Assembly: GCF_006874625.1 (NCBI RefSeq)
Contig: NZ_CP030034.1
Location: forward strand, 372,001-436,000
DNA: 64,000 nucleotides
DNA from: Bdellovibrio sp. NC01
Lineage (GTDB): Bacteria > Bdellovibrionota > Bdellovibrionia > Bdellovibrionales > Bdellovibrionaceae
Reading direction: 5' to 3'
A program made the position numbers and the translations under genes. Below, piece by piece: positions 39,233 to 51,560 of the stretch. Each line of letters begins with the position of its first letter. Position 1 is the stretch's first letter. The notes under the pieces are model-generated. The model had not been told where the DNA came from. It was given only the letters and a program-made list of their open reading frames with translations, and did not search any database.

Positions 39233-42046
39233 CTAGTGTTTGTGCACAGGCGATTTAGCCGGCCACAAATCAGTCCAGTGTGCAGAGCGTGCTTCTGCTT
39301 GGTGAGTCTCGCCCAAAGCATTTTCAGAAACGATGACTTTTTCAAGTGCTGTTTCAGCCAATACTTTACCGCAAGCTTCAACTACAGATTCAGCGTCGAT
39401 GCCATGGTAAGCGTAGATTTCAGAAGGGCGACCGCACTTAGAGTGCTTGCGAACTCCCAAAGCTTCCTGACGAACACCGATCACAGAACCGATATTGTCT
39501 AGAAGACCCGCTTCACCGTCAGCAACGCTGACCACTGGAACGCGTTTACCCGCTACAGTGATAAGATCGCCAGTAGAAACTTCTTCCGCTTTTCTCAAGT
39601 ACAAGTTTGAGTTGATGCCCAAACCGTTTTTCAAATATTCATAATCGCTGTCGTGAGCTTGGATGCCGACCAATAGATCAGGTGAAGTCACCACGATCAC
39701 GTTTGCATAGATACCGCGAGCAAGAAGAGCTTCAGAAGCCTTGATGCCTTCAGTAACCATTGTACCCAACGCGAAGATGTTCACAACGTTGTCACCTGGT
39801 TCATAGCCAGCGTAACCACGGTAATCGATCAAGTAGTATGCGCCTTGCAATACTTCTTCACGAATTGTCGACAAGATTGCTGCGTCTTCAATTGTGCCAA
39901 GTTCTTCTTCGTTAGCAGCGCCAGTGATTGGGAATTCTGCACGAGCTAGAGCACCCTCAAGACCTGATTTGAAACGAGCTTGTTTCTTCAAGTAGTGAAG
40001 CATGTCTTTTTGTTCCGCACCACGAGTTACTAGACGAAGCAACGTACCTGTACGGCCCGCATTGTCGTTCATAACGTGACGTTTGATTGTATCGCACATG
40101 ATCCAATCCAACTCTTGAGTGAAGAACGGTTCCCACGTGATTTGGTTCGGGATTTGGATGTCAGACTTCCAACCATGTTGCGCACCTTCCGGAGAAAGAG
40201 TCACGCCTGATGGAGTACCCACGCAAATGAACGAAGACTTCCAGTAAAGGTTGTAGAAGTATTGATCCAATGCACGTTTGATGAAGAAGTCATAAACCGT
40301 CATCAAAGGAATGATTGGTACGCCTACGATATCACGCATTTTACCAAACGCGCCTACGCAAGACATAACGTTGCCTTCAGCGATTTCAAAACGCAAGAAG
40401 CGGTCTGAAACGTCTTCGCCAGGAACCAAGTCAGGAAGCTTATGGTCTTTAACGCCAAGATCTGTTTCGTGGTCAGTGACTACTGGCGCACCGAAGATCT
40501 TACCGTCCATCGCTGGATTCAAGTTTGTTGAAGTACCAACGTCAGGAGCCATAGAGATAAACAATTCACCAGGCAACTTGAATGGTTTTTCCAAGTCAGT
40601 CAGTGGCTTTTGTTTGTCTGCCAATTTTTTCTCATCAAGCGGAGTGTTCGCGATACGAGTCAACTTCGCAGTCAACTGACCCAACATCCATTGCGTGTGA
40701 GGGTAGCTTGTCATTTTTGTGTTAATATCAAGTGATTGAGGGATTTCTCCGAACTCAGTCAATTTTTTCAAGAAGTACTCTTGGTTTTTCGCTTTCAAAG
40801 CATGTTGCGCTTTGATTTCGCCCAAGATTTTTTCACCACGAGCCGCCAAGAACTTACCTTCAGCAGAGTTTGCTGGAAGACGTTCATAAAGTTTGTCGCC
40901 AGTGATGCCTTGTTTTGCTTTCAATTCCATCACTTCTTCTTCTTGTGGAAGAGACGAGTGATTGCCCGGTTGAGCTGCAGATTTCAAGCCCCAACCTTTA
41001 AGAGTGTGGGCGATGATGATTGTTGGTTTGCGAGTTGAAAGTTTTGACTTCGCCATTGCTTCAGCCAAAGCCAACATGTCATGACCACCGAAATCGCGGA
41101 TAGCATCGAACAACTCTTCGTCAGTGATGCTGTCTAAGAACTTCTTCATAGAAGGATGTTCTTTTGCGATACCTTTTTTCAAAGCTTTCATGTCTTGAAC
41201 AAGAAGCAATGCTTGAAGTTCGTAGTCTTCCAATTCTTTCTCTAGGAAATTTTGGAAAAGAGCGCCGTCTTTTTTAGCGAACAAAGCTTGGCGTTTTGAA
41301 CCGTGACGTACTTGGATAACTTCCCAACCGTTGGCAGCCATAGTGCGCTCAACACGGTCAGCATCCGTACCGTTCATGATTTCTTTATTTGTGATACGGT
41401 GACCATCAAGTGATTGACGGTTGTAGTCCAAGATCCAAGTCAATGAACCCAACTCACGCTCTGCAAAGTCTGGAACGGCTTCGTACATTGAACCCTCACG
41501 GAATTCAGAGTCACCGCACACAGCCCAGAAGTGAGCATCTGGAACTTCATAACCGTGCTCGCGAGCATAACGGTAAGCCAAAGCCATGTAACCAGCTTCA
41601 ACAGGTGGAATACCTACAGTACCAGAAGGGAAGAAGTTGTGATGATCAGGATCGTAAGCAGAGTGATATGATTGGAATACGAATTCGCTGCCATCAGAGA
41701 ATTTACGTAGACCGTGCATCGCTTGGTCTGCTTGTTCTTGAGTTAATTTTGAAAGATCGCTCTTCAACAAATTATCAAGCAAGTAGTTGTATGAGTGATC
41801 GACTGGTGAAGCATGCGGTTTGTTCGCGATGTGATCGAAGCCAGTTTTAACCAACAAGTGCAAAGCACCCATGATGTGAAGCGAGCTGGCACAAGCAGCA
41901 GGGTGACCACCAACTTTTGGATCGCCTTTTTCTTTATCAGAGCGATGGTTGGCTTGCCAGATCATCTGAGTGGACAAGTAAAGCGCGCGTTTCGCGATTA
42001 CGTCCAAAACCTCAGGTTTGACATTCTTAAATTGAGAGTTATCCAC
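39233..42046 (-). CDS. Pyruvate dehydrogenase E1-like (homodimeric AceE / transketolase superfamily)
   Basis: Thiamin-diphosphate enzyme of 937 residues. The ThDP/Mg motif is GDSEFREGSMYEAVPDFAERELGSLTWILDYNRQSLDGH (GDG/S...N pattern) with the LHIMGALHLL start resembling AceE; the pyrimidine-domain segment SFICVGTPSGVTLSPEGAQHGWKS is the AceE signature TRQGVS-like glutamate region. E. coli AceE is 887 residues. The GTG at 42046 with AAGGAG eight bases upstream is a better start than the frame opening at 42097. No E2 or E3 gene is adjacent, so E1 role is inferred; related bacterial genes may act in other oxo-acid reactions. Confidence 0.82.
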   Translation of the reverse strand: MDNSQFKNVKPEVLDVIAKRALYLSTQMIWQANHRSDKEKGDPKVGGHPAACASSLHIMGALHLLVKTGFDHIANKPHASPVDHSYNYLLDNLLKSDLSKLTQEQADQAMHGLRKFSDGSEFVFQSYHSAYDPDHHNFFPSGTVGIPPVEAGYMALAYRYAREHGYEVPDAHFWAVCGDSEFREGSMYEAVPDFAERELGSLTWILDYNRQSLDGHRITNKEIMNGTDADRVERTMAANGWEVIQVRHGSKRQALFAKKDGALFQNFLEKELEDYELQALLLVQDMKALKKGIAKEHPSMKKFLDSITDEELFDAIRDFGGHDMLALAEAMAKSKLSTRKPTIIIAHTLKGWGLKSAAQPGNHSSLPQEEEVMELKAKQGITGDKLYERLPANSAEGKFLAARGEKILGEIKAQHALKAKNQEYFLKKLTEFGEIPQSLDINTKMTSYPHTQWMLGQLTAKLTRIANTPLDEKKLADKQKPLTDLEKPFKLPGELFISMAPDVGTSTNLNPAMDGKIFGAPVVTDHETDLGVKDHKLPDLVPGEDVSDRFLRFEIAEGNVMSCVGAFGKMRDIVGVPIIPLMTVYDFFIKRALDQYFYNLYWKSSFICVGTPSGVTLSPEGAQHGWKSDIQIPNQITWEPFFTQELDWIMCDTIKRHVMNDNAGRTGTLLRLVTRGAEQKDMLHYLKKQARFKSGLEGALARAEFPITGAANEEELGTIEDAAILSTIREEVLQGAYYLIDYRGYAGYEPGDNVVNIFALGTMVTEGIKASEALLARGIYANVIVVTSPDLLVGIQAHDSDYEYLKNGLGINSNLYLRKAEEVSTGDLITVAGKRVPVVSVADGEAGLLDNIGSVIGVRQEALGVRKHSKCGRPSEIYAYHGIDAESVVEACGKVLAETALEKVIVSENALGETHQAEARSAHWTDLWPAKSPVHKH

Positions 42047-42115
42047 GATGGTTCTCCTTGAGTTTTTCAGTCGTATTATCGGCTGGAAAACTAGCACTCT
42101 ACAGAGGAGGAGTCC

Positions 42116-42202
42116 ATGTATTTAAACCCCGCAGCAAGAGTACTGGCTCTATTCGGGACAAAGGGGTTGTGTTGGGTGCGAAAAACCTTAAAAAGGTCCT
42201 GA
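42116..42202 (+). other. Possible 28-codon small ORF
   Basis: ATG at 42116 with a strong GAGGAGG five bases upstream, encoding M-Y-L-N-P-A-A-R-V-L-A-L-F and ending at TGA (42200-42202). It lies in the 276-base gap upstream of the divergent E1 gene. It could be a small protein or chance; no homologue recognised. Confidence 0.3.
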
Positions 42203-42245
42203 TCACAGCTAGTTAGGAGTATTTAACATTCGTGTCGAGCGACTC

Positions 42246-42285
42246 TTAAGGGCTCATATTTTGAAAAATGTCTTAGAGCCCTTAA
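42246..42285. other. 10-bp perfect stem downstream of the phosphodiesterase gene
   Basis: TTAAGGGCTC and GAGCCCTTAA with a 20-base loop, in the 3' region of the phosphodiesterase gene. No T-run follows on the minus strand, so it may be a processed or protective hairpin or a weak terminator. Confidence 0.5.
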
Positions 42286-42322
42286 TAGAATCTTCAGTTT
42301 TGAGAGTGAAAAACCGCTGTTT

Positions 42323-43378
42323 TTAGAATGAGTTTTCGCTCTGAGCTCTGCCGCTCACTGCGCCATATTTCAGACCCAAGAAAGCTAAAATCGTCGGATG
42401 AACATCCATGTGCGTGACAGGGTAACGAAGAGATTCAAGTCGTTTTTTTGTACCGTAAGTCGCCATGATAAAGGGAATCGCATCGTCTTCACCTTCACGT
42501 TGATCATGCAGGCCCCACAACAAAACTTTATGCCCGCCATGATCCGACGTCAGAATCACCAACCATTCTTCTGAATTTTTTTGTGCGCGTGATTTCACCG
42601 CCTCAAGAAGTGGTTTGATCAAGCGATCGACTTCGCTGAAGGCTGCTAGGTAGCCGTCGTTGGAAGTGAAACCATAACGATGACCGGCGTGATCGACGCC
42701 ATCAAAGACAGACATGATCACATCCGTTTGCTCGTCTTGAATTTGCTTTAAAGTAAATTGCGCTAATTTTTTATCACGTGAGGCAGAGTTGTTATCGTTT
42801 GCCATGCGCACGTTCAAATTGCAACTGCTGTTCGCGGAGTTTTTCACTGTCGACCAAAATGAAGATTTGATTCCGCATTCATAGTCGAGAATTCCCGGTT
42901 TTGATTTGTCACCGGTTGAAGTCAGAAAATTGGCAACACCACCTGCGGCTGTTTTTAGGCCAGCCTCTTTCGCGCGCATCATGAAAGTGGGATAGCGATC
43001 GCGAACTTGCACGTAAGCTGCAAGACTTTCTGGTTTGTTGTCTTTCACGCCATGCAAATTGTTATCGACGCCGGTTAAAACCGAGAGCCATCCGGGACCG
43101 GTAAGCCATTGAAACTCTGATCCTGATTTTGGACCACTATGCGCGCGAGCACAACGCGGATCTTTGTGGCCGCCATACGCAGGATGATCGTCGTTGATAC
43201 ACGGAGCATAGATTCCTTCGTGCATCAGTTGTGCGGTCGCGGGCATTTTTTTTTGAATAAGCGCGCGATAGTGCAGTTGGTTTCCGGTGGCGCCATCGAT
43301 CCCGATGACTAATACGCGACGTTTTGCGAACGACACAGTTGCGAATACAGTTATCAAAGTAAAGATGAAGAGTTTCAT
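42323..43378 (-). CDS. Exported type I phosphodiesterase/nucleotide pyrophosphatase-like protein
   Basis: Exported (MKLFIFTLITVFATVSFA signal peptide) metal-dependent phosphatase of 351 residues in the alkaline phosphatase superfamily. Metal and nucleophile marks: VIGIDGATG (D28), LTGPGWLSVLTGVDNNLHGV with the presumed Thr nucleophile, SVFDGVDHAGHRYG, and LTSDHGGHK near 280. This arrangement is typical of nucleotide pyrophosphatases and phosphodiesterases, which could harvest nucleotides or lipids of prey. No good ribosome binding site is apparent. Monocistronic; the next gene upstream ends 36 bases before. Confidence 0.87.
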   Translation of the reverse strand: MKLFIFTLITVFATVSFAKRRVLVIGIDGATGNQLHYRALIQKKMPATAQLMHEGIYAPCINDDHPAYGGHKDPRCARAHSGPKSGSEFQWLTGPGWLSVLTGVDNNLHGVKDNKPESLAAYVQVRDRYPTFMMRAKEAGLKTAAGGVANFLTSTGDKSKPGILDYECGIKSSFWSTVKNSANSSCNLNVRMANDNNSASRDKKLAQFTLKQIQDEQTDVIMSVFDGVDHAGHRYGFTSNDGYLAAFSEVDRLIKPLLEAVKSRAQKNSEEWLVILTSDHGGHKVLLWGLHDQREGEDDAIPFIMATYGTKKRLESLRYPVTHMDVHPTILAFLGLKYGAVSGRAQSENSF

Positions 43379-43414
43379 TTTATGCTCTTGGGGTTCGAGT
43401 TAAAATTTATTTGG

Positions 43415-44899
43415 TTATGAGATTCCTTGAAGATAGTTAAATATCTCTGTGAATGCGCGGAGGCCGGTCGAGTGCGCGCCGTGAACAGAAGCGGGCTGTT
43501 GCACAAGTGAAGTCGCTTCACCCGCCCAAAACACGGGACGAGTTTCTTGTGCTAAAGTCTTGCGCGCATTTTGAGTTGAAACTTTTCCCTGTGATCCATG
43601 CACTTGCAAATACGAAATGCCACCTTTCGCAAAAGGATCGTCCATCCATTTCTTGCACGAATAAATAAGCGACTTATCTTTGCGCAGAACAATTTTCTTG
43701 AATGAAGAACTTTGCAACTTAAACATCACATCTAAATCCTTGCATACTTCCATGACGATATCTTTGCTCGCCATTGGTAACAAGCGCTTCGCTGGATCAC
43801 CACTTATTAGAGCGGTTAATACTGGAGGTTTGTCGCCCTCTTTATAATTGGGAACAAAATAAGTGTGACCTGTTCTGCGTTCTGATTTTTCTAGGTGATT
43901 GAGCATGCACATATCATCGGGCCAGAACTGTTTACTAAAACGAATCGAGACTTTGATTTGATGGGCAGATTCCAGGAATTGCAAAGCGGTGTCTTTATCA
44001 GTTGTCCAGTAAGGACCAAAATCGATCGAGTGAGACTTCAACATTCCTAAAGAGGCCGTTGATAAAACAGACCTCGCAGTGAATGTCCCTTGTGAGGTTT
44101 GCACGACGACGGTGTTGTCTTTTCCTGGGCGCAGTTTTTGAACTTTATGATTAAGTAAAATTTTTTCCGCGGTTATTTCATTACACATGCCTCTCAAAAT
44201 CTGATCGTAGCCACCTTGTACATAAAACTCATGCGTGCCTTTTATTTGTGGAATGATGTGATCGTACTGAAAGCCTTTCATGCTGACGGCGTTAAGGGGA
44301 GCGCCCAGATGACCGGTTAATAGTGCTTCCGCAGATTCAGCGGGGAAACCGTCATAACCCATAAGCTTCATAAACTTTGCGCCAGAAATATCGGGCCCGT
44401 CATAATTTTGAATGTCTTTAAATATTTTGTACGAACGAAGAATTTTAAAATTCAGATGGCCAATGGAATATAAAGGGGAATGCGGCGTTGGCGCTAAGAA
44501 TTCGGAGTTGTACAGATAGCCTTTCAAAAGCTTTGGATAAGATTTCGTCTCAAGCCTGTATCGAGAAACTTCATCCCAAATCGGTGCGAGGCCGGGAGCA
44601 ACGTGAATGTATTCTGCACCTAACTCTAAAGGTGAACCAAAATCTTTTGCCAGGGAACGATCCGTGAACATGCGCCCACCAATACGAGCGCTGCCCTCTA
44701 ATATTAGGATTTTTAAAGATTTTCCTTTTATGCGCGTGTTCGCTAGGTTGCGAGCTGTTGTCAACCCCGCTGGGCCGGCACCAATAACGATACAATCATA
44801 GATTGTTTTATCTTCGGCAACTGCGCACAAGGGAAGCTGTGCCAAAAGACTCGATCCTAATAAACCCAAAGAGTTCTGCAAAAATCTTCTTCGTTGCAT
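43415..44899 (-). CDS. Tat-exported FAD-dependent amine oxidase
   Basis: Flavoprotein of 494 residues with a twin-arginine signal MQRRRFLQNSLGLLGSSLLAQL. The dinucleotide motif is VIGAGPAGLTTARNLA, followed by the GSARIGGRMFTDR loop of monoamine oxidase/LSD1-type enzymes and the C-terminal FWAGEATS and GAHSTGLRAFTEI FAD-binding segments. Expected to oxidise amines (producing H2O2 and ammonia) outside the cytosol; substrate unknown. AAGGA six bases before the ATG at 44899 defines the start, as the upstream residues (from 44971) would bury the Tat signal. Confidence 0.9.
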   Translation of the reverse strand: MQRRRFLQNSLGLLGSSLLAQLPLCAVAEDKTIYDCIVIGAGPAGLTTARNLANTRIKGKSLKILILEGSARIGGRMFTDRSLAKDFGSPLELGAEYIHVAPGLAPIWDEVSRYRLETKSYPKLLKGYLYNSEFLAPTPHSPLYSIGHLNFKILRSYKIFKDIQNYDGPDISGAKFMKLMGYDGFPAESAEALLTGHLGAPLNAVSMKGFQYDHIIPQIKGTHEFYVQGGYDQILRGMCNEITAEKILLNHKVQKLRPGKDNTVVVQTSQGTFTARSVLSTASLGMLKSHSIDFGPYWTTDKDTALQFLESAHQIKVSIRFSKQFWPDDMCMLNHLEKSERRTGHTYFVPNYKEGDKPPVLTALISGDPAKRLLPMASKDIVMEVCKDLDVMFKLQSSSFKKIVLRKDKSLIYSCKKWMDDPFAKGGISYLQVHGSQGKVSTQNARKTLAQETRPVFWAGEATSLVQQPASVHGAHSTGLRAFTEIFNYLQGIS

Positions 44900-45052
44900 A
44901 GAGTGTCCTTGGTGAAGCACATTCAAATTGTTGAAGGTGTTCAGCGTCGAACATTCATTCTCAAAGGGCAAGTTGCAGAGTCGTTAGATGCTTTCCTACA
45001 ATAAGTCGTTCCTGAGAAGGCCGTAAAACTTAATGAGCACTGGCCGCGAAAA

Positions 45053-46138
45053 TTATGGGTAAAGAATCGGCCCTTGAACGAAGCGCTCGATGTATTCGCG
45101 TTTTTGTTTGAAGCGTTCAGAGTAATAGATCTCTTCTGTGCTAACGCCGAAATCAGTCGATGCCTTAATAACGATGTTTTGTTTCTTGGTCTGCAAGATC
45201 CAACGAGCCGCCCAGGCTTCTGCGAAGTCATCCATTGGATTTGTCGATCCATATGTAGATGCAAAAGTTGATTTTGAAAAACCAGTATAAAGAGGCAGAA
45301 CGTCCGTTTCTGGATTCATCACTTCTTTGCATTCGTAGAAGCACAACTTACTTCTTAACGTGTAGTCTTTTTCTGTTTTTACGTTGAACGGCGTAGCCCA
45401 GTCGAATGAACCCCAAGAACCCTCTGCGAATACAGGCTTACATTTCTCCATGTATTCTTCTGCAGAGTGGATGTCGTTCATGTCACAATCAAGGGTGTTG
45501 TGATAGTTATTCAGTTGATTTGCGAAATCCAGAAGATGTCCTACTTCGTGCACCAAGGCGTATTCTAGCAACGGCAATTCGTCGGAAGCTTGATAGCGCG
45601 GAAATGCTAGAGGAGTTTCTAACTCGCCAACGCGGGCGAAGTTTTGTTGTTCTTTCCAAGAAGCCCATGGTGCATATGCCGGCGCTTTCGTAAGCAATGT
45701 TTTTCTAACACCAATCACGCCACCAGGAAGTTGGACGTATTTGCCATCAGCATCACGAGTGAAGACCTGTGATGCATAAGCTGTCGCAAAGAATTTATTT
45801 TCGATAAAGATACGACGAACATGGCAAAACGCACCCTGTGTAATTGGATCAAAAGCGTCGTAGATTTTTTCAACGGCTGCAAGATACTGTTCTTCACCGC
45901 CAAGACATTTTCTATCTAGTGTCGAGCCGTTGTTTTCGTCATCAACTTCGCACAGAACCTTTGCAATATTGGCGCGGCAATCAGTGGCTGGTGTCCAGCT
46001 TGCGTCTTTATCGGTTAGGTTTTCATCAACGATGTGGAATACGTCAGGGCTTCCACTTGAAGGGATATAGCTTTTATCGTTGGATTTCGAGCACGCAGCT
46101 AATGCGATGAAGGCACAAAGAAGTAATGACTTTTTCAT
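45053..46138 (-). CDS. Lipoprotein zinc metalloprotease candidate (HEVGH)
   Basis: Lipoprotein of 361 residues: signal peptide MKKSLLLCAFIALAAC with the lipidated Cys16. The zinc-binding HExxH motif is HEVGHLLDFANQL (H197, E198, H201), and DDFAEAWAARW about 105 residues later (E307) is a plausible third ligand in the style of gluzincins such as lethal-factor-like peptidases. Several cysteine pairs (CRAN/LCEV, CDMN/CKP, CFYECK) suggest disulfides. Sits between the amine oxidase gene and the lipid operon on the same strand. A prey-digesting or envelope protease is a reasonable guess. Confidence 0.85.
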   Translation of the reverse strand: MKKSLLLCAFIALAACSKSNDKSYIPSSGSPDVFHIVDENLTDKDASWTPATDCRANIAKVLCEVDDENNGSTLDRKCLGGEEQYLAAVEKIYDAFDPITQGAFCHVRRIFIENKFFATAYASQVFTRDADGKYVQLPGGVIGVRKTLLTKAPAYAPWASWKEQQNFARVGELETPLAFPRYQASDELPLLEYALVHEVGHLLDFANQLNNYHNTLDCDMNDIHSAEEYMEKCKPVFAEGSWGSFDWATPFNVKTEKDYTLRSKLCFYECKEVMNPETDVLPLYTGFSKSTFASTYGSTNPMDDFAEAWAARWILQTKKQNIVIKASTDFGVSTEEIYYSERFKQKREYIERFVQGPILYP

Positions 46139-46293
46139 TCTATAAAACCCTGACTTCCTAAGTTAATGAACTCAGCATATATATCAGGGTTTTGAAGGCT
46201 ATCAAAATTTTAATGCGATTTACTCGGTGCAAAGCGTTTCTAAAAACTCAATGACTATGTCACTAGTTCACAGCCGTCAAAGATCTTTACACT

Positions 46294-48270
46294 TTAGCGA
46301 CGCCAAGCCTTCGCAACTTGTTTGCTGAAGAAGTCCGGAGCCACGGCATTAATCCACACTTTCATTTGTAAACCGAACTCGGCCTGCTTGGATTTGCCAG
46401 AGTAAAACTGATTCACTACATCGAGCGCTACGTCTTCAGGAATCGCATAATCAAAGGATTTGCCGATTTGATAATAACGCAATGAAGTTCGGCCCATATC
46501 TTTTTGCAGTGGGGAATGCTGGCTTTGCGCGATGTACACCATAAACGGAACTTCGCCAGCGACTTCACGTTGTAAGGATTCCGTTAAAGTCCACAGTGCT
46601 GCATGTGACGAGGCATAAGTGCTCAGCAGGGGATAACCGACGCGTCCGCTTGAAGACAGGACATTCAAAACACCCAGTGGCTTTTTGCTTTTCCATTCTT
46701 TCAAGAAGTTTTGCATCAACACCAAGGGCCCAAAGAATTGGGCATCAAAGATGCCTTTGATTTGTTCCAGCGACTGGTTTTCTAAAAGATCGACGGTCAA
46801 TCCACCCGAGGCATTCACCAAGCCTGTGAATTTCATCGCAGGTAATTGTTGTTTTAATTTTTCTAACCAGCCATCTTCAGAGTAATCGACAACGGCAGAA
46901 CCCACGATCAGTTTGCGCTCTTTGTCGGAAAGATTTTGTAGAAGGCTTGTCATCTTTAGATCACTTCGCCCAATAAGGAACAAAGGTTGATCGCGTAATA
47001 AGAACTGCTTCACAACGAGGGCACCAAGATTTCCAGTAGCACCATTAATGATAACGGGCTCGGAAGAAGTGATAGCAGAATGAGCCGCGACTTGCGTTTG
47101 AGACGCCACTGGTTGGGCGAGTGGCTTATTCACAAGTTCACTCACAGCGGCGATGAAAAATTCTAGCTCTGAATGCAAAGTAAAGAAATGTGGTGAGACG
47201 CGCACATAATCGCCACGCACGGTGACCGAGATCTTCTTTTTATCAAAGAACTCGTGCACTTTGCGGTGATCGACTTTTTGTGGAATTTTAAAACAGATAA
47301 TGCCCGCAGAAAGATCTTTTTCGCCGGTCATGAGTTCTAGATTCAAAGCTTTTAGCTGCTCACGTAAAAACTTTAAGTGCGTTTGCAGGCGCGTATAAAT
47401 TTCTTCAATACCAAACTTTTGGAAAAGTTTTAACGAAGTTCCCATTCCCAGAATTGGAATATAATTGGGAAGTCCTGGTTCGAAGCGGGTCATTTCGTTC
47501 GAGAATTCTAGCTTTGTTAAATCAAAATATTCAGGATAGCGATGGCTTGTCCAGCCCACCATCGGAACGAAAAGAGTTTCCAAAAGTTCTTTGCGGGCAT
47601 AGATAAAGCCTGCCCCTACAGAACCCAGCAACCATTTTTGTGAACCGGAAGCTAAGAAATCAAAACCCATATCATGACAGTGAATAGGGGAGTTGCCGAT
47701 GGCTTGAATCGCGTCGACGCATGAATAGATTTTATTTTTACGACAGAAGTTAGCGAACTCTTTTAAATCAATACGTTTGCCCGTTTCAAAACTAACAGCA
47801 CTGATGCTAATAACTTTGACATTAGAAAGATCCAGCGAACTTAATGCTTCTGTGATCGTTTGATCTTTCTTAATAGTAAAAGGAACAAGTTCAACACCGA
47901 AGCGTTGCAAGTTCTTCCACGGATAATAGTTCGAAGGGAATTCATTGTCGGGAACTAGAACTTTATCACCTTCTTGTAGGTTCAGAGCAAGGGCAATGGT
48001 GCTGACTGCACTAGAGGTATTTTGTACGAATGCGATTTCACCGGCGTGGGCGCCAAGGAAGGCAGCAAGTTCTTTGCGGATCATTTCTACTTTGTTGAGG
48101 CTTTGATAGAAATGTTTCCCCAAAGGTTCTTGCATCAAGCCGATTTCTTCTTGCATCGCTTGAATGCTGGATGTGGGAACCGGGCAAGTTGCGGCATAAT
48201 TTAAAAAGCATTGCCCTTTCAAGAAGGGCAATTGATTGCGCAAATCTAAAATCGCTTGATCGTTGCTCAT
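46294..48270 (-). CDS. Fusion: class V aminotransferase and SDR-like domain
   Basis: A 658-residue two-domain protein. Residues 1-385 are a fold-type I PLP enzyme of the class V (cysteine desulfurase/isopenicillin epimerase) kind: FLNYAATCPVP, the phosphate site NTSSAVST, SVDAIQAIG, and Schiff-base lysine K212 in ASGSQKWLLGSVGAGFI. Residues 405-650 are a short-chain dehydrogenase: INGATGNLGALVV, NASGG, SSSGRVG with Ser539, and Y552 but with His556 where Lys is expected (YASSH). The start at 48270 overlaps the previous gene in ATGA, with GAGG upstream. Last gene of the lipid operon; the longer frame from 48390 is rejected. Substrate unknown. Confidence 0.85.
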   Translation of the reverse strand: MSNDQAILDLRNQLPFLKGQCFLNYAATCPVPTSSIQAMQEEIGLMQEPLGKHFYQSLNKVEMIRKELAAFLGAHAGEIAFVQNTSSAVSTIALALNLQEGDKVLVPDNEFPSNYYPWKNLQRFGVELVPFTIKKDQTITEALSSLDLSNVKVISISAVSFETGKRIDLKEFANFCRKNKIYSCVDAIQAIGNSPIHCHDMGFDFLASGSQKWLLGSVGAGFIYARKELLETLFVPMVGWTSHRYPEYFDLTKLEFSNEMTRFEPGLPNYIPILGMGTSLKLFQKFGIEEIYTRLQTHLKFLREQLKALNLELMTGEKDLSAGIICFKIPQKVDHRKVHEFFDKKKISVTVRGDYVRVSPHFFTLHSELEFFIAAVSELVNKPLAQPVASQTQVAAHSAITSSEPVIINGATGNLGALVVKQFLLRDQPLFLIGRSDLKMTSLLQNLSDKERKLIVGSAVVDYSEDGWLEKLKQQLPAMKFTGLVNASGGLTVDLLENQSLEQIKGIFDAQFFGPLVLMQNFLKEWKSKKPLGVLNVLSSSGRVGYPLLSTYASSHAALWTLTESLQREVAGEVPFMVYIAQSQHSPLQKDMGRTSLRYYQIGKSFDYAIPEDVALDVVNQFYSGKSKQAEFGLQMKVWINAVAPDFFSKQVAKAWRR

Positions 48271-48902
48271 GCTTGGCCTCGATCTTTTCTGCCGGCTTCT
48301 TTGTACACGCGCGTGTAACGTAAGATCAAAGTGATCGTTCCGCCGATGATTACCCAATAGAAGAAATAAAGTATGAAGTCGATGCCCCAATGAAATTCCA
48401 AGCTAAAATACTGAAAAAGTGAAAGAAGCATCAACGCTGCTAACCGATCTGTTTGTCCAACGGGTCCTACACTTTGAACGGCTAATCCGGAAGGAGCGCC
48501 GAACAATCCAAAGAAAGGAACAGCCCAGGCAAATAGCATCACGAAGACACCCAGAGGATAAATCCCCTTCATGACCACAAGTGTAGGGATCAACATCAAA
48601 TCACAAAGTTCAGGAGTAATTCTATTTAAGATATCCCCTTTTACCGAGGACTTGTTGTAGTGAACTGCAACAAGTCCGTCTAGCGTTGCGACGATCATTC
48701 GCAGGATTCCAAGCAGTCCACCAATAATAAAGAAAATTTTGTGTCCGCCAGATAAGGCATAGTAATAGCACCACGCCATTGCGACACCCACGGGTAACAA
48801 AGCATAACTGATTTTATTTGGGTCAACGTTTTCGCAAGCAGGAATTAAGAAACTAATCACTTTGCGAAACGGATATTTTAATAAATAAAGTCCTACGTCC
48901 AT
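48267..48902 (-). CDS. CDP-alcohol phosphatidyltransferase family protein (second copy)
   Basis: Integral membrane protein of 211 residues with about six membrane segments. The family motif D-G-x2-A-R-x8-G-x3-D-x3-D appears as DGLVAVHYNKSSVKGDILNRITPELCD: the leading DG and A are kept, Arg is Val-His, and the later acids are shifted (N and D), so this member is more divergent than the copy at 49933. It would join a CDP-activated lipid to an alcohol or amino alcohol. AGGAG precedes the start; overlaps the fusion gene by four bases and follows the cytidylyltransferase by nine. Confidence 0.82.
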   Translation of the reverse strand: MDVGLYLLKYPFRKVISFLIPACENVDPNKISYALLPVGVAMAWCYYYALSGGHKIFFIIGGLLGILRMIVATLDGLVAVHYNKSSVKGDILNRITPELCDLMLIPTLVVMKGIYPLGVFVMLFAWAVPFFGLFGAPSGLAVQSVGPVGQTDRLAALMLLSLFQYFSLEFHWGIDFILYFFYWVIIGGTITLILRYTRVYKEAGRKDRGQA

Positions 48903-48911
48903 GAAACGCTC

Positions 48912-49931
48912 CTACAAAAATTTAAGTATGAAATAGGCGACGGGTACCGTGAATACGAGTGCATCGATGCGGTCGATGATGCCCGATCCTCCCGGTAACC
49001 AGGTGCCGGAATCTTTTTGACCGTGAATTCGTTTGATCAATGAAAATGCCAGATCACCATACAAACCTAAGATGCCAGTTGTTACAATCATCAGGAATAT
49101 TTTGAAAAAGCCCAAGCCTTCAAGATGAAAAACAGAATAGCTAAGTGGTAAACCCAAAATTAAAAGAGCGAATGTACTTAAAACTCCAACCCACCAAGTT
49201 TTTTGCGGACTGACTTGGGCTGCGACTTTTTTGTGAACCATACGGCTTAGTGGTGTATCGTTCACTGGGGTTTTACTGAACGCTTTTCCCACCCAGTAAG
49301 AAATCAAATCGCGAATTTCAGTTAAGAACACGATCAATAGGAAGGCGTACGCTTCTAATTTATAGAATGCAAATGACAACGGCAAAAGGACCGCAAAGAA
49401 ACTAAAACCTAAGCTAAGTGCCGATAGGGAAGTGGCCTTGCCGCTGGTTTGATTTTTCATTACGTAAAATAATGGCATTAGCACGCCAACGAAAGTGGCA
49501 CTGAAAGCAAAGAACTCATTTTCTAAGCCGAAATACAAAAGAACGTAATTCGCAATGCACGCCAAAGCGGGAAACTGAAAATAAGGATCAGCGACAATTT
49601 TCCCAAGAGACTTTTCTTCCGGGAAAACCAGGCTGTGATATTCAGCCAAAGATAGTAAACTTCCGCACGCAAGCAATGCCGCTAAAACAGAGGGATGTAA
49701 AACCAAGGCGATGCCGAATAGTGACAACATCCACCAAAATGTTAGGGTGCGAGCCATGAGTTCATGGGCACTCTTGTGGCCTTTCTTTTCTAGACGTGTG
49801 ATAAGCACGGAAAAGAAAGTCAAAAGAGCGATACAGATTAAAAAGAAAATCAGAAGCGCGTTTTGTCCCGTGCTGCCGAATTGATATAGTGCAAGCCCAT
49901 TTGCGACCACAAAGAAAGCAATCTGAAACAT
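48912..49931 (-). CDS. Phosphatidate cytidylyltransferase (CdsA-like)
   Basis: Polytopic membrane protein of 339 residues (about eight hydrophobic segments) with the C-terminal CDP-diglyceride synthase signature SLIKRIHGQKDSGTWLPGGSGIIDRIDA: S-x-K-R-x4-K-D-x-G-x2-L-P-G...G-x-x-D-R-x-D, in which the usual PGHGG is PGGSG. It makes CDP-diacylglycerol or a related CDP-lipid from CTP and phosphatidate. Sits between two CDP-alcohol phosphatidyltransferases, only one base after the first, so it supplies their donor. It may be an additional copy besides a housekeeping cdsA elsewhere. Confidence 0.88.
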   Translation of the reverse strand: MFQIAFFVVANGLALYQFGSTGQNALLIFFLICIALLTFFSVLITRLEKKGHKSAHELMARTLTFWWMLSLFGIALVLHPSVLAALLACGSLLSLAEYHSLVFPEEKSLGKIVADPYFQFPALACIANYVLLYFGLENEFFAFSATFVGVLMPLFYVMKNQTSGKATSLSALSLGFSFFAVLLPLSFAFYKLEAYAFLLIVFLTEIRDLISYWVGKAFSKTPVNDTPLSRMVHKKVAAQVSPQKTWWVGVLSTFALLILGLPLSYSVFHLEGLGFFKIFLMIVTTGILGLYGDLAFSLIKRIHGQKDSGTWLPGGSGIIDRIDALVFTVPVAYFILKFL

Positions 49932-49932
49932 C

Positions 49933-50586
49933 TTACCTGCCGTACAAAGTGTGTGATTGGTAGCTAAGCCCTTGTGTTTGTTTTTTTATTTTATAAATTC
50001 TAAATAAACCAGTTAAGAACGTCAGTACCGATAACGCCATGATGAAGTGATTTATATAAAAAGCACTCATCGGTCTGAAGAAACAGCAAATGGCAAAAAG
50101 GCAGAACCACAAACTGCGCTCGGGCTTTCCACCTAAAATAGATTCTTGTCTGCGAATGTGGCCGGGAAGTGCGCGGCCTAATAAGCCCGTGAACTCTGCA
50201 AACCAACAGCACACGATAAAGATCGCAAGATAAAGACCATTAACGTAAGGAATGAAGAAGAGCGAACCATAAGTGATCGTATCACCCCAGATATCGCCAA
50301 GTTCATTCAGAACTTCGCCCATCGGAGTGGCGCGATTTTGTGCTCTGGCAATCATTCCATCTAATGCGTTAAACACTAAACGAAACAAAACCAGAGCTGG
50401 AAATGCGAGTAAAGGCCAAGCTGTTTGAATATTCTCAGGATTTAAATTGCGAAAGCCACTATACAGAGCAGCCGTCGATAGAAATACGAAAAGCCAACCC
50501 AGCAAGCTTGCATGGTTGGCGGTCATTCCTGAAAACGCAAATGAATTTGCCAGTTGTTGAAATCTGGCTTTCAGGGAATATAACAT
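49933..50586 (-). CDS. CDP-alcohol phosphatidyltransferase
   Basis: Membrane enzyme of 217 residues with about five membrane segments. The catalytic motif is well preserved: DGMIARAQNRATPMGEVLNELGD (D-G-x2-A-R-x8-G-x3-N-x3-D), the variant with NE in place of the third position acid. The family links CDP-diacylglycerol to an alcohol such as glycerol phosphate, serine, inositol phosphate or an amino alcohol; the acceptor cannot be read. Start codon overlaps the TonB-like stop (TAATG). Followed by the CdsA-like gene after one base. Confidence 0.88.
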   Translation of the reverse strand: MLYSLKARFQQLANSFAFSGMTANHASLLGWLFVFLSTAALYSGFRNLNPENIQTAWPLLAFPALVLFRLVFNALDGMIARAQNRATPMGEVLNELGDIWGDTITYGSLFFIPYVNGLYLAIFIVCCWFAEFTGLLGRALPGHIRRQESILGGKPERSLWFCLFAICCFFRPMSAFYINHFIMALSVLTFLTGLFRIYKIKKQTQGLSYQSHTLYGR

Positions 50587-51560
50587 TAGCTTTCTAAAAC
50601 GAAGTCCCAGCGAATTTTCACTGTACCGTCTCCTTCAATAATTCCTTTTGGAGGATTAGGGAACGGAGCAGCTGCACGGAATGCATCGATGGCAGCATCA
50701 TCCAAATCTTGAACACCTGAATCCATAAGGACTTGCACACGAACTAGAGTTCCTTTGTCATTCAATACGATCATCAATTTAGTGACGCGGTCTTGTCCTG
50801 TGGAAGCAGGATTACGACCCTCTTTAAACATTTTGGAAAGTTTATCGCGAACACGGCCTTCCCAGTGTTGGGCCAATTGTCTGCGAATACGATTATAGTA
50901 AGAGTAATACTTGAACTCGCGCGTATTCAGCATCGTTTCAAGTCCCTGATCGACATCTTTAATATAATCGTTTGTGCGGCTTGCATCCGCACCGTCTTTC
51001 GCAACTTCAGAACCGTCACCATTACCTAGACCTTGGCCTGCTTCTTTAGCAGCTTGGGCTTGGTCACGTTTTTTCTGGCGTTCTAATGCTTCACTAGGAT
51101 CAAAACTTTTGAATAAATCTTTAGCCACACGCTCGTGAGTAGCCTCTGTCGATTCCTTCGCTTGTTCTTTCACTTTGCCATCACCTTTAGGACCTGATTT
51201 TGGTGGGGCGGCTTTTTTCAAGTTTTGAAATTGGCCTTTATCCACAGCAATAGTCTGTTTGGTAACGACTTGGTTTTTAGCGCTCAAGAAACGAGAATCC
51301 ACGGGCTCTTTTTCGTTCACAGAGTTTTCATTCTGTTCAACGATTTGATTAGCAGGATTAAGTTGTGATCTTTGCTCCTGAAGTTTTTGGGCAGCAGCAA
51401 GCTTAGCCATATCTTCAGGCGTAAGAAGATCGATACTCACGCTTTGCTCTTTGGGTTTTAATTTATCCAGCTCTCCAAAAAGGAAGAGTCCTCCGAGTAC
51501 AACAACGTGGACGATCAACGAAAGGGACACATACTTTTTGAAAGACGGTGACTTTTTCAT
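50586..51560 (-). CDS. TonB-like energy transducer (TonB C-terminal protein)
   Basis: 324-residue protein with one N-terminal membrane segment (about residues 10-28, VSLSLIVHVVVLGGLFLF), a long charged, Gln/Ala/Lys-rich periplasmic linker (KPKEQSVSIDLLTPEDMAKLAAAQKLQEQ... RQKKRDQAQAAKEAGQGLGNGDGS), and a TonB/TolA C-terminal fold (KLMIVLNDKGTLVRVQVLMDSGVQDLDDAAIDAFRAAAPFPNPPKGI...VKIRWDFVLE). It spans the periplasm to transmit energy to outer-membrane receptors, or in this setting may act like TolA. No exbB/exbD adjoins. GAGGTCCT precedes the ATG. First gene of the lipid operon. Confidence 0.88.
   Translation of the reverse strand: MKKSPSFKKYVSLSLIVHVVVLGGLFLFGELDKLKPKEQSVSIDLLTPEDMAKLAAAQKLQEQRSQLNPANQIVEQNENSVNEKEPVDSRFLSAKNQVVTKQTIAVDKGQFQNLKKAAPPKSGPKGDGKVKEQAKESTEATHERVAKDLFKSFDPSEALERQKKRDQAQAAKEAGQGLGNGDGSEVAKDGADASRTNDYIKDVDQGLETMLNTREFKYYSYYNRIRRQLAQHWEGRVRDKLSKMFKEGRNPASTGQDRVTKLMIVLNDKGTLVRVQVLMDSGVQDLDDAAIDAFRAAAPFPNPPKGIIEGDGTVKIRWDFVLES

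Follow-up and report, generated by a model that had tools for sequence, protein, structure and literature searches.

Which product is to be expected from a locus that combines a CDP-lipid synthase, two CDP-alcohol transferase-like proteins and a fusion of a PLP enzyme with an SDR? Such a locus is found on the minus strand of the Bdellovibrio sp. NC01 genome, within the window, i.e., the whole stretch of 64,000 nucleotides that was analyzed. Five open reading frames follow one another there, listed in the direction of transcription:

51560-50586, minus strand: TonB/TolA-like protein, 324 aa, with TonB_2/TonB_C domains; first gene of the run, outside the conserved unit
50586-49933, minus strand: CAP1, YnbA-like CDP-alcohol phosphotransferase, 217 aa (Pfam CDP-OH_P_transf PF01066, 1.1e-7; YnbA-like HMM)
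49931-48912, minus strand: CdsA/YnbB-like CTP:phosphatidate cytidylyltransferase, 339 aa (CTP_transf_1/CdsA PF01148, 1.2e-31)
48902-48267, minus strand: CAP2, divergent YnbA-like CAP homologue, 211 aa (YnbA-like HMM, 92.4 bits; hhalign E value, 2.5e-14)
48270-46294, minus strand: class-V PLP enzyme-SDR fusion, 658 aa (Aminotran_5 PF00266, 4.3e-52; adh_short PF00106, 4.9e-16)

The domain and family matches agree with the sequence-only reading of this DNA, which had described genes for CDP-lipid supply, two CAP-type proteins and a PLP enzyme fused to an SDR. The junctions between the five open reading frames (-1, +1, +9 and -4 bases) also reproduce exactly the packing that it had given, with overlaps of 1 and 4 bases and gaps of 1 and 9. 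Close packing is common in the window, where 12 of 37 same-strand neighbors are at most 10 bases apart, and it is weak evidence when taken alone. The start of the fusion was placed at the ATG at 48270, as the TTG at 48390 in the open reading frame list had no support from the orthologue. The span 46294-51560 takes in the TonB-like gene, which the title of the sequence-only reading did not name.

Stronger evidence for a unit than the packing is the recurrence of four of the genes in two other genomes (G130 and G201), in one of them at a different place. Every one of the 24 genus genomes has the TonB-like gene, and the four lipid genes stood behind it in only two, the window genome and G130. Wherever the contig extends, the TonB-like gene adjoins PP2C and M23 peptidase genes, and the genes behind it differ by genome; in G201, it and the four lipid genes are at separate places. 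The TonB-like gene thus occurs irrespective of the lipid genes, which recur without it, indicating that the unit consists of CAP1, CdsA, CAP2 and the PLP-SDR fusion. The TonB-like gene was rejected as a member, and the claim of five genes in one operon did not hold. A neighborhood survey, which had been proposed as a check for the same five genes, found the four lipid genes kept together in three genomes but all five only in the window genome and G130.

When the occurrence of the module was assessed by a CAP2 profile search over 369 Bdellovibrionota genomes, the complete four-gene module was present in only three (the window genome, G130 and G201), which are also 3 of the 24 genomes of the genus. 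The best match beyond these carriers was an ordinary YnbA-like protein. Beyond the Bdellovibrionota, coverage consisted of a single scan of genome contigs with weak peptide patterns derived from the CAP2 alignment, and this matched only the known G201 contig. G201 is a Bdellovibrionaceae MAG that was also found as CANFQX010000001. In the plasmid collection, class-V PLP homologues were found at about 30%, and at no place did a match span 80% of the fusion. The order of the four genes in G130 and G201 was the same as in the window genome, and they were adjacent or overlapping in every copy. The module occupied two distinct chromosomal places among the three carriers, G201 being the one that differed, and the G201 copy has an additional YnbB-like CdsA gene directly upstream. 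The module is rare and patchy within one genus, which is consistent with gain by transfer or with repeated loss.

The module proteins of G130 shared 78 to 82% identity with the window copies, and those of G201 shared 36 to 60%. Between the window genome and G201, CAP2 was the best conserved gene of the module (60%), followed by CAP1 and the fusion (approximately 43%) and CdsA (36%). Between the window genome and G130, dN was 0.12 to 0.19 and synonymous sites were near or at saturation, so that a dN/dS ratio was not obtainable for most module genes. These values indicate that the module genes are under purifying selection.

The window genome has a separate canonical cdsA (in the order tsf-pyrH-frr-uppS-cdsA), pgsA and pssA, indicating that the module does not serve housekeeping phospholipid synthesis. 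Another pair of a YnbA-like CAP and CdsA (L009 5202-6772, at G000 3.432 Mb) is present in the same genome, as is a CdsA-like and PlsC pair (L011). The sequence-only reading had overlooked both the ynbA-ynbB counterpart of the CAP-CdsA pair and the second copy in the same genome. Of the loci in the phylum that CAP1 or CAP2 matched, 19 were examined. In nearly all of these CdsA is close by, with PlsC in many and a ynbC homologue in some. Together with E. coli ynbAB and the L009 pair, they show that a CAP next to CdsA is the norm in this family.

CAPs are dimers that move the phosphatidyl group from CDP-DAG, the product of CdsA, onto alcohols. An HMM for YnbA-like CAPs, built without any module member, scored CAP1 at 91.7 to 105 bits and CAP2 at 89 to 92.4 bits across the three genomes (91.7 and 92.4 bits, respectively, for the window copies), against 10 bits for PgsA and 4 bits for PssA of the same genome. 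CAP2 had no Pfam match and reached NF040950 only at 1.5e-13, far under its cutoff, but hhalign aligned it with the CAP1/YnbA set over 190 columns (E value, 2.5e-14). In the tree, CAP1 and CAP2 fell into the YnbA-like group as two separate clades (support of 100/99 and 99/98, respectively), away from PgsA/PssA, on long branches that make their exact position tentative. By these sequence criteria, both proteins belong to the YnbA-like family and not to PgsA/PssA. Structural searches did not add to this placement: AlphaFold models from two-sequence alignments (pLDDT 50 and 55) were too poor for use, and a fold search with the low-confidence CAP2 model matched mostly designed helical proteins and was set aside. 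The matches of CAP2 to designed "Pizza" proteins in a phmmer search of the PDB were rejected as compositional artifacts.

Canonical CAPs have eight invariant residues, D1xxD2G1xxAR...G2xxxD3xxxD4, of which D1 to D3 are metal ligands and D4 is the probable base; the D4N exchange almost abolishes the activity of PIP synthase (PMC4634129). CAP1 and CAP2 share homology and the D2-G motif with canonical PgsA, PssA and PIP synthase but depart from them at several of these positions. The signature of CAP1 is N73-x2-D76-G-x2-A-R...G90-x3-N94-x3-D98, in which Asn replaces D1 and D3 and the Asp residues at D2 and D4 are retained. The N/D/N/D pattern (N-x2-D-G-x2-A...G-x3-N-x3-D) was present in CAP1 of all three carriers and in each of 21 further YnbA-like proteins examined, among them YnbA of E. 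coli and the paralogue at L009. CAP2 departs even from this YnbA-like signature in the three genomes. Its sequence, A72-x2-D75-G-x2-A-V...G89-x3-N93-x3-P97, has Ala at D1, AV for AR, Asn at D3 and Pro at D4, identically in all three carriers, and retains D2, the glycines and the P-N-x-x-S nucleotide motif, the last also in common with the canonical enzymes. The changes are consistent across copies and appear not to reflect decay; the finding that CAP2 is the best conserved gene despite its altered signature argues for a specific function. The description of the two proteins as "two ways of attaching an alcohol" had assumed ordinary transferases and does not fit two YnbA-like proteins with altered signatures, one of which is without the base Asp.

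The module CdsA was clearly recognized (CTP_transf_1, 111 bits against a cutoff of 24). When it was aligned to YnbB of E. coli and to the canonical CdsA of the genome, its C-terminal signature proved otherwise intact, including the SxxKRxxxxKDxG...DRxD core. Ahead of the DRxD core, however, PGG[ST]G replaces PGHGG in all three module CdsAs, whereas the CdsA upstream of the module in G201 retains PGHGG, as does every other relative with a readable motif. The module CdsAs also form a distinct clade in the tree (100/100).

The fusion comprises a class-V (SufS-fold) PLP domain at residues of approximately 1 to 380 and an SDR domain at approximately 400 to 640, and the two are fused in all three carriers. 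Residues K211, D185, Q188 and R356 of the PLP domain (numbered without the initial Met) are invariant and align with the PLP Lys, the DxxQ motif and the carboxylate Arg of SufS. Class-V PLP enzymes bearing this Arg use alpha-amino acids. The solved structures closest by sequence were 5b7s, 5xt5 and 1elq, and a fold search with a low-confidence model of the fusion returned the SufS-fold assignment and the same families again. The domain shares its fold type and PLP residues with SufS-like enzymes and the cysteine-cystine lyase C-DES but differs in its fusion to an SDR and in lacking the Cys-bearing SufS loop, where it shows a gap when aligned to E. coli SufS. A SufS/Fe-S role was rejected because this loop is absent; the score with the SufS model was 131 bits against a cutoff of 475. 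SDRs reduce keto groups. In all three fusions, the YxxxK motif is replaced by YxxxH (H555), in which the His aligns to the Lys that the L009 SDR has, and with the catalytic Lys lost in every copy the SDR may not be a working reductase.

The closest known system is E. coli ynbABCD, in which a YnbA-like CAP with the N-x2-D-G...G-x3-N-x3-D pattern is directly followed by a CdsA paralogue, as in the CAP1-CdsA order. Unlike ynbABCD, the module lacks ynbC (hydrolase/methyltransferase) and ynbD (phosphatase), and it gains the more altered CAP2, the PLP-SDR fusion and the substitution of G[S/T]G for HGG in CdsA. The CAP-CdsA-PlsC clusters of the Bdellovibrionota (L086-L103) and the L009 pair likewise join a YnbA-like CAP to CdsA, but their CAPs are only approximately 23 to 35% identical to those of the module, many occur with PlsC or stand alone, and no PLP-SDR fusion is present. 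The module is a rare modified version of the ynbA/ynbB pair, which E. coli and many relatives of these predators carry, and it differs from the threonine and phosphonate lipid routes already described. It probably makes an unusual membrane lipid. No described pathway with exactly this gene set was found in the literature searched, in agreement with the sequence-only reading. That literature also gave no reaction or biochemical data for any YnbA-like protein, and neither it nor PHROGs provided a functional lead for the module.

From the gene content and order, the co-inheritance in three genomes, the family placement and the conserved signature changes, we infer every reaction and the product as follows. 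The four genes may constitute an accessory pathway of the YnbA/YnbB type to a minor phospholipid whose head group derives from an amino acid, a reading which we hold to be about evenly poised between right and wrong. CdsA would charge phosphatidic acid, or a related phospholipid, to give a CDP-lipid, and CAP1 would transfer the phosphatidyl moiety to an acceptor, either a small alcohol or an alcohol-phosphate. This acceptor would be produced or remodeled from an alpha-amino acid by the PLP-SDR fusion. CAP2 could either partner CAP1, since CAPs are dimers, or act on the same CDP-lipid with altered chemistry. Both the SDR step and the CAP2 step are in doubt, given the changed residues of the two proteins. 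A bolder version, tentative and rather unlikely, is that CAP1 and CAP2 form a matched pair that transfers phosphatidyl groups in the absence of the metal ligands D1 and D3 (and, for CAP2, of the base D4 as well) and, together with the fusion, makes an undescribed class of phospholipid.

A serious rival, although in itself improbable, would be a lipid-pyrophosphate-sugar, i.e., GlcNAc-PP-DAG or an MPIase-like glycolipid, for which CdsA/YnbB would provide CDP-DAG and CAP1 would use a sugar phosphate as the acceptor. In E. coli, MPIase levels rise with YnbB and with CdsA, the latter being reported to synthesize GlcNAc-PP-DAG, and YnbB does not substitute for CdsA in bulk lipid synthesis (PMC6362211). 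A phosphate nucleophile may also depend less on a general base, which could fit the altered CAP signatures. However, deletion of ynbB left MPIase almost unchanged, and YnbA is never mentioned in that study (PMC6362211). Furthermore, the module has no glycosyltransferase, and the PLP-SDR fusion has no role in this route.

Somewhat less probable still is that CAP1 and CAP2 are no longer transferases but bind or sense CDP-lipids, with the fusion acting in an unrelated pathway and the operon being a transcriptional grouping only. The loss of two of the four Asp residues in CAP1 and three of four in CAP2, along with the degenerate SDR signature, would fit this. The CAP1 change is, however, family-wide, in more than 20 proteins that nearly always have CdsA near, and the four genes have remained linked at more than one chromosomal location, with CAP2 the best conserved among them.

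We regard it as quite improbable that the product of the fusion is a long-chain amino ketone or amino alcohol, i.e., a sphingoid-like backbone to which the CAPs would add head groups. A PLP enzyme joined to an SDR does resemble the combination of serine palmitoyltransferase and 3-ketosphinganine reductase, and sphingolipids are reported in these predators, as cited in PMC3539863. The PLP domain is, however, of class V (SufS-like) and not an alpha-oxoamine synthase, the SDR lacks the catalytic Lys, and the module has no acyl-carrier or acyltransferase gene.

The least probable product, at a very low likelihood, is the phosphatidylthreonine or phosphonolipid that had been proposed earlier: CAP enzymes do attach amino alcohols, and phosphonosphingolipids are reported in Bdellovibrio strain UKi2 (Steiner et al. 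1973, as cited in PMC3539863), but the canonical PssA elsewhere in the genome is the ordinary candidate for serine/threonine transfer, and a module missing from 21 of the 24 genus genomes cannot account for a genus-wide lipid trait. No paper in support of the phosphatidylthreonine idea was found in the literature searched. The phosphonate route was rejected, as none of the 24 genus genomes had a PEP phosphomutase above the TIGR02320 cutoff of 319.55; subthreshold matches scored 113 to 120 bits, and similar ones occurred in E. coli and other control genomes. The PLP domain likewise scored only 48.7 bits with the AEP-transaminase model against a cutoff of 360.8.

The module is a compact natural version of the ynbA/ynbB family, which is widespread but poorly understood. 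The altered catalytic signature of the family occurs twice in the module, in two degrees, beside a PLP enzyme whose presence suggests that the head group comes from an amino acid. The locus also cautions that a CDP-alcohol transferase-like gene does not always encode a standard phospholipid synthase. As the carriers are a few strains of a predatory genus, a comparison of carriers and noncarriers could reveal the product.

The L009-type YnbA-like pair is present in 7 of the 24 genus genomes in total, among them all three module carriers. As a lead rather than a result, this co-occurrence (hypergeometric value of 0.017, not corrected for relatedness) hints that the module and the L009-type pair may act on a common lipid.

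The four-gene lipid module (CAP1, CdsA, CAP2 and the PLP-SDR fusion) is extended in G201, one of the other two genomes that carry it. The G201 genes form one run with two CdsA and two CAP genes, which includes an additional CdsA with a PGHGG motif that scored 226 bits against the YnbB HMM.

L108 6497-7546: additional YnbB-like CdsA of G201, directly upstream of CAP1

Bigger clusters were found in more distant relatives within the phylum (loci L094, L095, L096 and L102). These contain a YnbA-like CAP, a ynbC-type hydrolase/methyltransferase, an O-methyltransferase-like gene, CdsA and PlsC, and at L095 the CAP is directly preceded by an MMPL-family exporter gene. The clusters look like complete units for lipid synthesis and export.

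The genome of the window has a second CAP and CdsA pair. An inositol-monophosphatase-like gene, named from its sequence alone, lies near this pair and also adjoins the pair in G130, the other module carrier, and in G142. The second pair may have an inositol-phosphate link. The same genome also has a CdsA-like gene and a PlsC-like gene without a CAP; the CdsA motif of the former is atypical.

L009 5202-6772 (3.432-3.434 Mb): YnbA-like CAP and CdsA, second pair
L009 7167-8045: inositol-monophosphatase-like gene
L011 4459-6200 (3.057 Mb): overlapping CdsA-like and PlsC-like acyltransferase genes

Downstream of the module, the phosphodiesterase/sulfatase-like and flavin amine oxidase genes showed no sign of module membership. 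Positions 39233-51560 of the window are a variable region behind the TonB-like gene. The transketolase-domain gene is located directly behind TonB in four genomes (G092, G199, G061 and G065), and other genomes have unrelated genes there.

Window 42323-44971 (-): type I phosphodiesterase/sulfatase-like gene and flavin amine oxidase gene, same strand as the module
Window 39233-42097: transketolase-domain gene, 954 aa
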